NCBI GenBank assembly: GCA_028819235.1
Contig: JAPPMC010000001.1
Coordinates: 1 to 64,000, forward strand
Length of the DNA stretch: 64,000 nucleotides
Source of the DNA: Bryobacterales bacterium
Lineage (GTDB): Bacteria; Acidobacteriota; Terriglobia; Bryobacterales; UBA6623
Direction of reading: 5' to 3'
The first letter of the stretch is position 1, and each line of letters starts with the position of its first letter. A program made the position numbers and the translations under genes. Shown here piece by piece: positions 38,366-41,647 of the stretch. The notes under the pieces are model-generated. The model was not told where the DNA came from. It made no database searches and saw only the letters and a list, made by a program, of their open reading frames with translations.

Positions 38366-41300
38366 ATGAGAAAACGGACGCTTGTTTTGGTGGTTTCTGC
38401 TGTCTTCTGCGGCTTCTTCGGAATCGCAAGCGCGCAGGAAACAGCCACGCTGCGCGGTGACGTGACCGATGATACCGGGGCCGTGATGCCTGGAGTCAGG
38501 ATAACGGCGAGCAATGTGGCCACCGGAGCCGAGGTGACCGGTTCGACCGACTCCGCTGGCGCATACGAATTGACGCTCCAGCCCGGAACCTACACGGTGA
38601 TTGCTGAGACTTCCGGGTTCGAGGCCGGCATCGCTGACCTCATCGAGTTGGCCGCGGGCCAAACGTCAGAACAAGACTTCACCCTCGAAGTGGCGACGGT
38701 TACCGAGTCCGTTGTGGTGATCGGGAGCCGCGCCGCGCCGCGGTCCGTGATCGAGTCCACCGTACCGGTGGATGTCATATCTACCACGGATCTCTCGAAT
38801 CAGGCGAGCAGGGATCTGGTCACCCAGCTGCGCACTGTCGTACCCTCGTTCAACGTCAACATACAGCCGATCAGCGATGCGGCGACGGTGGTCCGTCCTG
38901 CGAACTTGCGCAACTTGGCACCGGACCACACGTTGGTGCTGGTGAACGGCAAGCGCCGGCACCGGGCGGCGGTCATAACGTGGCTGGGCAACGGCATCGC
39001 CGACGGGTCTCAAGGACCGGACATCTCTGTCATTCCGTCGATCGCAATTCGTCAGGTCGAGGTGTTGCGGGACGGAGCGGCGGCCCAGTACGGCTCCGAC
39101 GCCATCGCCGGTGTGATCAACTTCGAGCTGAAGAACGCTCCGTCGGGAGGCAGCATCGAGGTTCAGACCGGGGCGTTCATGGACACCAACCCCGGGGACC
39201 CGTCGACCTGCGGATCCAACATCGGTGACATCAAGCACTCCTGCAATGGCATTGGCGGACGAGGCAGGACCTTCTCCGTGGCCGGCAATGTGGGCCTGCC
39301 GCTCGGGGAGGACGGCTTCGCCAATTTCAGCTTGGAATACGGCACGGCCGAGCCGACCAACCGCGCCATCCAGCGCAATGACGCGGCGGACATCATCGGC
39401 GCGGGCAACGGGAACTTGCGCAACACGGCACAAGTTTGGGGCTCCCCAAGAATCAACCGCGACCTCAAGCTGTTCATGAACGTCGGCCATCAAATCGATG
39501 ACCGCATCCAGCTGTACGGTCACGGCAACTACCTGACGCGCAAGGTGACCGGAGGCTTCTACTTCCGGAACCCCCACACCCGGGGCGGGGTCTTCCGCGG
39601 TCCAGTGCTGGAGGACGGCAGGCCAAGCCTGCTAGTCGGCGACCGGGTTTGGGCCGCAACCGCTCCCGAAGGCCCCGTGCCTCCCGGGCGGGAGCCCGGC
39701 GCAGGTGGCTGCCCCGTCATCCCCATCAACAACAATGTTCCCGACGCGAACGCCCTCGCAGCGGTTGAGGCCGATCCGAATTGCTTTACTCTCTACAGCA
39801 GGTTTCCCGGAGGATTCACGCCGCAATTCGGCGGTGACCTGATCGACTATTCGATAGTCGGGGGCGTGCGCGGATTTGCCGCCAACGGCTTAACTTGGGA
39901 CCTCAGCGCCAGCCAAGGCACCAGCGAGATCGACCAGTTCATTTTCGACACGGTGAACGCGTCGCTCGGGTTCGACACGCCGACTTCCTTCCGCCCAGGC
40001 ATCTACCGACAGGACGAGACGAACCTCAACTTCGACGTTGCCTATCCGGTGAACGACCTAGTGCACGTGGCCGCCGGAGCGGAATGGAGGAGAGAGAAGT
40101 TCACGATTGGAGCCGGCGACGACTCGTCGTGGCTGATCGGCCCGTATGCTGCCCAAGGCTTCAGTTCCGGCTCGAACGGCTTTAACGGCTATCGCGCCGA
40201 TACGACAGCTGGAAGTTGGGACCGCCGGAACGTCGCCGTGTACGGCGACGTCGAGTTCTCCGATCCCGGAAGGTGGACCCTCGGCACGGCCCTGCGTTTC
40301 GAGAACTTCAGCGACTTTGGTTCTACGCTCAATGGCAAGGTCTCCGGTCGCCTCAGCCTGACCGAGGTGGTGGCGCTGCGCGCCGCGGTGAGCACCGGCT
40401 TCCGTGCGCCGACACCGGGTCAGCAGAACGCGTTCAACGTGACGACGGCATTCATCGGCGGGCAGCTCACCAACAACGGCGTCGTCCCCGCGACATCAGC
40501 AGTGGCCATCGCGCGGGGCGGCGGCCAGCTCCAACCCGAGAAGTCGCTCAACTTCAGCGGAGGGTTGGTCGTCTCGAAAGGGGCGTTCACCCTCACCGCG
40601 GACTTTTTCCGTGTTGACATCGAGGACCGTGTCGCCCTGTCCCAGGAGATCGTCCTGTCGGAGCCCGAGATCGAGACGCTGCTGGCGGAAGGGATTCCGG
40701 AAGCGCGGAACTTCCCCGTGTTCCGGTTCTTCCTGAACGACTTCGGAACGATCACTCAGGGCCTCGACCTGATCTCAACGTACGCGGTCGGGAACACGAG
40801 CTTCAGCGCCGCCTACAACTACACGGACACACAACTGACAAACATCGAGAGTTCCGTGATCGATCAGTTCCGCATCACCACGCTGGAGCGGGGTCTGCCG
40901 AATACCCGCTGGAGCTTCGGCATCACCCACGACGCGCGCCGCTGGAGACTGCTGGGCCGACTGAACTATTTCGGTCAGTTTTGGGACAGCGAGGACGGGC
41001 GGAATGCTGTCGGCCTGCCGGGCGGTCCTTCCCAGTCTTGGATGTACCCGAACTACTCCGGCAAGGCGCTGCTCGATCTGGAACTTGGCATTCCGCTCGG
41101 CGAGAACGTCAGCGTAGCCGTGGGCGGGGAGAACATCCTCAACACTTACCCGGACGTGAACAACTTCGGGGCCATGACCGTGGGCAACCTGTACGGCCAG
41201 TTCTCGCCCTTCGGGTTCAACGGAGCGAACTTCTACGTGCGGCTTAACTATGGCTGGGGCGAGAGCCGTCCCGGGGCACACCGAGCTGCACTGTCGGACA

Positions 41301-41647
41301 AGGATGCCGATCTGAATCCCCGTCGGCTGCGCCTTCAGGTCGTGGAGCAAATCGCGGAGCTTGAGACACTGCACGACGAGCTGATCGAGCGCCTGCAGGC
41401 GAACCAGGAGGAGCACAGCGACCCGTGGATGAGGCGCTGGGCGGGAGACAAGCTCGCGGATGCGCAGATGGCGAAAGAGCGGGACATGGAGATGTTGCGG
41501 TCAGCCCTTGCGAGACGGGGACTTCGCGACGATGTCGAGCCGCTCCTGAGGATCGCCGAATTGAAGCAGGCGGAGGTCAAGAACCGAATCGCCTCCGCGT
41601 CGAACAACACCGTTCTGGCTGCTACGAGCCACATACTGGCGCCGTAG
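38366..41647 (+). CDS. TonB-dependent receptor with an extra C-terminal coiled-coil tail
   Basis: A 1093-residue receptor with signal peptide (TLVLVVSAVFCGFFGIASAQ), carboxypeptidase-regulatory domain (ATLRGDVTDDTGAVMPGVRI), TonB-box-like ESVVVIGSR, plug (RNLAPDHTLVLVNGKRRHRA and QVEVLRDGAAAQYGSDAIAG) and barrel. It is paralogous to the receptor at 7559. The barrel reaches its expected end at about FNGANFYVRLNYGWG, but the protein continues for roughly 130 residues of charged helix (LRLQVVEQIAELETLHDELI, RLQANQEEHSDPWMRRWAGD and RSALARRGLRDDVEPLLRIA). TonB receptors normally end at the last strand because the terminal aromatic is read by the BAM machinery, so this tail is odd. It may be periplasmic or the result of a gene fusion. 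Confidence 0.92.
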   Translation: MRKRTLVLVVSAVFCGFFGIASAQETATLRGDVTDDTGAVMPGVRITASNVATGAEVTGSTDSAGAYELTLQPGTYTVIAETSGFEAGIADLIELAAGQTSEQDFTLEVATVTESVVVIGSRAAPRSVIESTVPVDVISTTDLSNQASRDLVTQLRTVVPSFNVNIQPISDAATVVRPANLRNLAPDHTLVLVNGKRRHRAAVITWLGNGIADGSQGPDISVIPSIAIRQVEVLRDGAAAQYGSDAIAGVINFELKNAPSGGSIEVQTGAFMDTNPGDPSTCGSNIGDIKHSCNGIGGRGRTFSVAGNVGLPLGEDGFANFSLEYGTAEPTNRAIQRNDAADIIGAGNGNLRNTAQVWGSPRINRDLKLFMNVGHQIDDRIQLYGHGNYLTRKVTGGFYFRNPHTRGGVFRGPVLEDGRPSLLVGDRVWAATAPEGPVPPGREPGAGGCPVIPINNNVPDANALAAVEADPNCFTLYSRFPGGFTPQFGGDLIDYSIVGGVRGFAANGLTWDLSASQGTSEIDQFIFDTVNASLGFDTPTSFRPGIYRQDETNLNFDVAYPVNDLVHVAAGAEWRREKFTIGAGDDSSWLIGPYAAQGFSSGSNGFNGYRADTTAGSWDRRNVAVYGDVEFSDPGRWTLGTALRFENFSDFGSTLNGKVSGRLSLTEVVALRAAVSTGFRAPTPGQQNAFNVTTAFIGGQLTNNGVVPATSAVAIARGGGQLQPEKSLNFSGGLVVSKGAFTLTADFFRVDIEDRVALSQEIVLSEPEIETLLAEGIPEARNFPVFRFFLNDFGTITQGLDLISTYAVGNTSFSAAYNYTDTQLTNIESSVIDQFRITTLERGLPNTRWSFGITHDARRWRLLGRLNYFGQFWDSEDGRNAVGLPGGPSQSWMYPNYSGKALLDLELGIPLGENVSVAVGGENILNTYPDVNNFGAMTVGNLYGQFSPFGFNGANFYVRLNYGWGESRPGAHRAALSDKDADLNPRRLRLQVVEQIAELETLHDELIERLQANQEEHSDPWMRRWAGDKLADAQMAKERDMEMLRSALARRGLRDDVEPLLRIAELKQAEVKNRIASASNNTVLAATSHILAP

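Follow-up and report, generated by a model that had tools for sequence, protein, structure and literature searches.

A predicted, inherited three-helix domain after the last barrel strand of an acidobacterial TonB-dependent receptor

Results

The receptor gene and its neighbourhood

The window analysed here, a stretch of 64,000 nucleotides from a Bryobacterales genome (contig JAPPMC010000001.1), carries on its forward strand at 38366-41647 a gene for a TonB-dependent receptor with a C-terminal tail. The gene encodes 1093 amino acids followed by the stop codon TAG. According to Pfam, the protein contains a CarboxypepD_reg domain (PF13620, receptor residues 28-108), a Plug domain (PF07715, residues 129-250; 56.7 bits, cut-off 23.9) and a TonB barrel (PF00593, residues 506-924; 97.6 bits, cut-off 27). 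Both the Plug and the barrel exceed their Pfam cut-offs, which identifies the protein as a TonB-dependent receptor; no NCBIfam model scored at or above its cut-off. In a sequence search of the PDB the top matches were siderophore and enterobactin receptors, aligned over the plug. The terminal aromatic strand is kept, but 129 residues come after it. Such a strand at the very C-terminus is usual for TonB-dependent receptors rather than defining, and the protein is an ordinary family member with an unusual end.

Divergently from the receptor, a gene on the reverse strand (35766-38156) encodes a single protein with GAF, PAS, histidine kinase, receiver and DNA-binding domains. Just downstream of the receptor, on the forward strand, lies a decayed C-terminal piece of another TonB receptor (41829-42002), which matches the end of L015 with 54% identity along 56 residues (E 2.8e-11). 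Apart from the close relative L060, the 16 loci compared share no neighbours around the receptor, that is, we found neither a conserved operon nor, by shared neighbourhood, a nearby partner gene. In the window genome (7.2 Mb), the TonB barrel family is matched 88 times. We read the longest-frame ends at 30 of these loci and found F or W in 27 cases, L in one and an unreadable end in another; among the 29 of 30 ends that were read, a tail occurs on the receptor described here only.

Extent and predicted fold of the tail

In the full-length AlphaFold2 model, and by comparison with tailless relatives, the predicted barrel closes with a strand at residues 954-963, next to W964, where the protein formerly ended; together they occupy 41225-41257 on the forward strand. 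The strand reads FYVRLNYGW and ends at W964 (41255-41257). The tail then runs from G965 to P1093 (41258-41644), a total of 129 residues before the TAG. A first-pass annotation of this DNA had seen that the frame runs beyond the terminal strand to 41647, which the translation and the full-length model bear out, while the tail start that it gave, 41270, is four codons late, the true start being 41258.

The tail is predicted to consist of a linker and a three-helix bundle. The linker (residues 965-984, 41258-41317) is variable, with a pLDDT under 50 at 965-983 and only 26-32% identity across lineages (window/L057 and window/L094). It is followed on the same strand by helix 1 (residues 985-1016, 41318-41413), helix 2 (residues 1020-1050, 41423-41515) and helix 3 (residues 1058-1086, 41537-41623), which were predicted both from the tail alone and in the full-length model. 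In the tail-alone model the helices lie at tail residues 21-52, 56-86 and 94-124, and with a mean pLDDT of 77, and 82-94 over most of the core, the bundle is predicted confidently from the tail by itself. The full-length model (32 sequences, mean pLDDT 65, pTM 0.60) has 22 barrel strands and then the three helices, where the strands were counted by hand from the DSSP elements from residue 261 onward, leaving out 452-455. Here, the confidence was moderate for the barrel, low for the linker and mostly under 50 pLDDT for the plug. The turn between helices 1 and 2 holds the motif TDxWxxRWAG, which in the window tail reads SDPWMRRWAG. The tail had been annotated as a charged coiled coil; its helical nature stands, but a bundle of three helices after about 20 low-confidence linker residues takes the place of a single coiled coil.

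We searched several libraries for relatives of the tail. Neither Pfam, in which 12 tails were scanned, nor NCBIfam contains a matching family (best 0.01), and the same holds for PHROGs (best 0.055) and for the sequences of the PDB, where the best match (0.0081) was to a designed repeat protein. Foldseek returned 332 matches to the tail at E up to 10, none of them at 0.001 or below. The best structural alignment by VIA-align (Z 11.2) was to designed three-helix coiled coils, which could reflect just a common helical-bundle arrangement. The domain is thus absent from the libraries searched and undescribed. In the parts of the literature on C-terminal tails of TonB receptors that were available to us we recognised no comparable case; as far as the available text of PMC10404256 goes, the C-terminal extension there is on the lipoprotein BtuG1 and not on the receptor.

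The terminal strand and the comparison with OmpA

Compared with tailless relatives, the terminal strand is barely altered (FNGANFYVRLNYGW against FNGAYYYVRLNYSW), and therefore no new insertion signal is required. An internal signal, processing and a periplasmic helical tail had been proposed side by side for this receptor, but with the strand retained they are not equal options, and the helical tail in the periplasm is the likely form. In OmpA, the periplasmic domain comes after the barrel. By analogy, a domain after the last strand should in principle be no bar to assembly, since OmpA too has a periplasmic domain, one that binds peptidoglycan and accompanies an 8-stranded barrel according to the part of PMC13067283 we had at hand. 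The window receptor resembles OmpA in that a soluble domain, expected to lie in the periplasm, follows its barrel and makes the assembly strand internal. Unlike OmpA, it has a PF00593 barrel of 22 predicted strands and a helical bundle; in Pfam, none of the 12 tails contains a peptidoglycan-binding family and the whole protein contains no OmpA domain. A published consensus locates the assembly signal in the final strand, and internal strands with equivalent signals have been reported as well (PMC10945584, in the portion accessible to us). Compared by eye with the pattern in that portion, FNGANFYV matches it save for its first, polar, place.

Inheritance of the tail

Among 150 related genomes, 14 contain a match to the receptor with an E of 1e-60 or lower. 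We found 12 orthologues (the window's own included) that are 74-95% identical over the whole protein, and all of them are tailed. Their tails are 49-90% identical, with 28 invariant columns. The first-pass annotation had held that, if orthologues ended at the barrel and the stop was lost only here, the tail would be a local mutation; with 12 of 12 tailed, this is not the case. Within the window's genus, 10 of 11 genomes have a tailed orthologue, as do two of three genomes in another genus of the same family; the four remaining members of the family lack one. The nearest named relative of the window is L060, a metagenome-assembled Bryobacterales genome (95% identical), and the isolates with tailed receptors are, judging from their names, presumably sponge symbionts. 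A profile of tails and stand-alone relatives (see below) found the tail in 12 of the 257 genomes of the order, always inside the receptor frame and never as a stand-alone protein. Since all 12 orthologues, in two genera, carry the tail fused to the receptor, it is not a local accident but a module passed on by descent, with relatives among the envelope proteins of DNA-transfer elements.

We also read the ends of relatives at 67 loci. The script handles only frames that contain the terminal motif; four cut-off matches (L099, L106, L111, L116) were left out of it and three loci (L076, L105, L107) had no readable motif, which leaves 60 readable relatives from named genomes. Of these, 10 are tailed and 50 end 0-4 residues past the motif, including acidobacterial receptors that are 69-75% identical as well as receptors from Gemmatimonadota, Rhodothermales and a Poribacterium. 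Receptors with PF13620, PF07715 and PF00593 share with the window receptor all three domains, 22 predicted strands and the terminal aromatic strand, and it differs from the 50 readable ones outside the clade by its additional 129 residues. In a tree of 37 barrels, from which the tail columns had been removed, the tailed rows form one side of one branch (SH-aLRT 99), and they nest within tailless acidobacterial rows (quick method). The simplest reading is a single gain of the tail.

Could the tail be a neighbouring gene that is still separate in tailless relatives? A tail profile run over the loci matched only the tails and one stretch at E 0.18, and we rejected this origin. None of eight tailless genomes had a tail match in a search run without a positive control, including the acidobacteria L062, L063 and L067 with their tailless orthologue. 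In a search of 300 genomes, 125 had matches at E up to 1, the best beyond the 12 receptors being 4.2e-4; these weak matches include 183-amino-acid frames in five genomes of the same genus (E 0.018-0.375). In some genomes, a second, tailless receptor that is 50-53% identical adjoins the main one: in L094 it lies at 6828-9584 on the reverse strand, next to the receptor at 10001-13273 on the forward strand, and in L064 at 13038-16070 on the forward strand.

Selection on the tail

For the bundle, dN/dS was below 1 in nine of nine pairs (0 to 0.48, compared with 0.04-0.27 for barrel plus plug), yet the bundle evolved faster than the barrel in six of the nine. From these sequence comparisons it is apparent that the tail is under selection, more loosely than the barrel. 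The least constrained pair is window/L060, with 0.48 in the bundle and 0.07 in barrel plus plug.

The pair L056/L057 is a mosaic. In steps of 15 codons, DNA identity is 0.89-1.00 over residues 166-960, but 0.47-0.87 in the N-terminus and 0.56-0.77 in the tail; four-fold sites were compared as well. Judging by these identities, the two lineages exchanged the barrel, with the break where barrel and tail meet, and each kept its own ends. Because the barrel was swapped and the tail stayed, this one event points to a tail that goes with the host rather than with the ligand chosen by the barrel.

Stand-alone relatives and their genomic setting

The tail profile also matched stand-alone proteins (E 1.6e-11) in one genus of the same phylum that belongs to a different family. 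Their distribution is patchy: they occur in six of the 24 genomes of that family, and the same six are found among 148 genomes of its class. A wider search gave one of 150 genomes in the phylum of L070 (a named Gemmatimonadete) and then three of 121 genomes of that family, so that in total stand-alone relatives are present in nine genomes of two phyla; such relatives had been named as a check on the tail. Four further genomes matched at weak E (0.0025-0.0084), and a match in G389 (1.8e-4) turned out, on reading, to be a spurious frame with stops. A search of plasmid and phage collections with L119 gave no match, and in viral contigs searched with A1, A5 and L119, 23, 20 and 9 stretches fit a pattern, none of which was confirmed.

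The match is reciprocal. A profile made from three stand-alone proteins finds all 12 tails at 27.3-46.8 bits, the best of 2400 shuffled tails scoring 10.3 bits, so the tail and the stand-alone proteins share a helical domain. In the proteins of L118, L119, L125, L184 and L188 the motif reads TDxWxxRWAGD. Alignment A4 comprised seven of the 12 tails and three stand-alone proteins. Identity between tails and stand-alone proteins is 0.46, 0.71 and 0.50 around the helix 1-2 turn and 0.24 and 0.28 in the near halves, whereas among the tails alone the tip is no more conserved than the rest.

In contrast to the receptor tail, the stand-alone domains are encoded by separate genes and have their own anchors, which we recognised by eye. 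Anchors are present in five of the nine genomes: a transmembrane-like segment opens the proteins of G401, G461 and G691 (loci L118, L119 and L125), and those of G859 and G960 (loci L184 and L188) have a lipoprotein-like start with a lipobox. The G859 protein has two tandem copies of the domain. The stand-alone protein of G453 is interrupted, those of G688 and G692 are fragmentary, and that of G961 has no clear anchor. Both kinds of anchor fit a domain that lies in the periplasm. Inside conjugative elements at L186 (7834-8937, reverse strand) and L191 (5974-6861, forward strand), lipoprotein-like proteins hold the tail-type domain in one or two copies.

In five of the nine genomes (G401, G461, G691, G859, G960) the stand-alone gene lies about 1-4 kb from type IV secretion genes for conjugation. 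By Pfam and open reading frames, the neighbours there are VirB11-like, VirD4/TraG, TrbL, TrbC/VirB2, VirB4-like or CagX/VirB9, and the five loci also hold ParA, RepA or integrase genes; ParA or Rep occurs in seven of the nine genomes. In the remaining four stretches we saw no gene for conjugation; two of these are contigs from a single genome, each shorter than 5 kb. We ran the conjugation queries against 23 control stretches, the window included, and none matched; since the queries come from the stand-alone loci, this 0/23 informs on receptor loci only and gives no base rate. By these queries the receptor gene does not lie inside a conjugative element, and it seems to work like a host-chromosome recipient of the domain rather than a member of such an element.

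Discussion

A receptor of this type would be expected to stop at its last strand, and the tailed clade departs from that. It is a natural test of the assembly machinery facing a 22-strand barrel whose signal is not terminal, and it reveals an undescribed helical domain that ties a host receptor to conjugative elements from two phyla. We consider it probable that a periplasmic three-helix docking domain was joined once to a TonB receptor, before two genera of one acidobacterial family diverged from their ancestor. With its even strand number, the barrel would leave the tail in the periplasm, a placement that we infer from this number together with the anchors of the stand-alone relatives. The retained last strand would still be recognised by the BAM machinery though it is no longer terminal, as OmpA makes possible, and the bundle would act as a dock that keeps a partner from the periplasm or the inner membrane close to the receptor. 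The helix 1-2 tip would face away from the membrane and is perhaps the docking site, because tails and stand-alone proteins agree best there.

On the other hand, the tail may serve a structural purpose, as the periplasmic domain of OmpA does, and anchor the receptor to the cell wall or drive its oligomerisation. Helical bundles often self-associate, the bundle is placed as in OmpA, and the designed three-helix coiled coils are its best structural alignments; however, the Z of 11 is perhaps merely that of a common arrangement, no peptidoglycan-binding family was found in the tails, and only one receptor of the window genome carries a tail among the ends read, so that we regard this role as unlikely. 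Rather less credible still is a cleavage after assembly, by which the tail would work as a free periplasmic helical protein and the receptor be its carrier only. The variable, low-confidence linker and the existence of tail relatives as separate proteins would suit such a processing, but the linker is short and the intact stand-alone relatives keep their membrane anchors.

The tail could also be a tolerated passenger that was gained once and is harmless and without function. A dN/dS of up to 0.48, the faster evolution in six of nine pairs and the differing length and sequence of linker and ends, with an extension of up to 170 residues after the W, agree with this, yet the frame is unbroken in 12 of 12, 28 columns are invariant at about 50% identity and there is homology to stand-alone proteins, which makes a mere passenger improbable. 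The least plausible is the local loss of a stop codon with read-through into formerly non-coding DNA. The closest tailless relatives do end in WGGSF and a stop, a few residues from the tail start, but all 12 orthologues are tailed and form a clade, homologous proteins exist separately, and the DNA that follows the stop codon in nine tailless relatives is unlike tail DNA. In 54 such comparisons there was no consistent signal: a single one scored above all of its 60 shuffles and another was equalled by two of 60, as many tests would give. We therefore rejected both the local stop loss and the read-through of downstream DNA.

While the docking domain is our preferred reading, a more far-reaching one is that the host receptor took over an envelope domain of a conjugative element and uses it against or for conjugation: the copy on the receptor would occupy the periplasmic partner of the element's protein and serve the host as a decoy, to exclude conjugation, or as a docking site. 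We give this putative use little credence; if true, DNA transfer and nutrient uptake would be coupled at the outer membrane. According to the part of PMC12658005 that we could consult, TraT-like surface or entry exclusion proteins are anchored in the envelope and encoded in conjugation loci, two properties in which TraT-type proteins resemble the stand-alone relatives; TraT itself is described there as a homodecamer whose helices cross the outer membrane.
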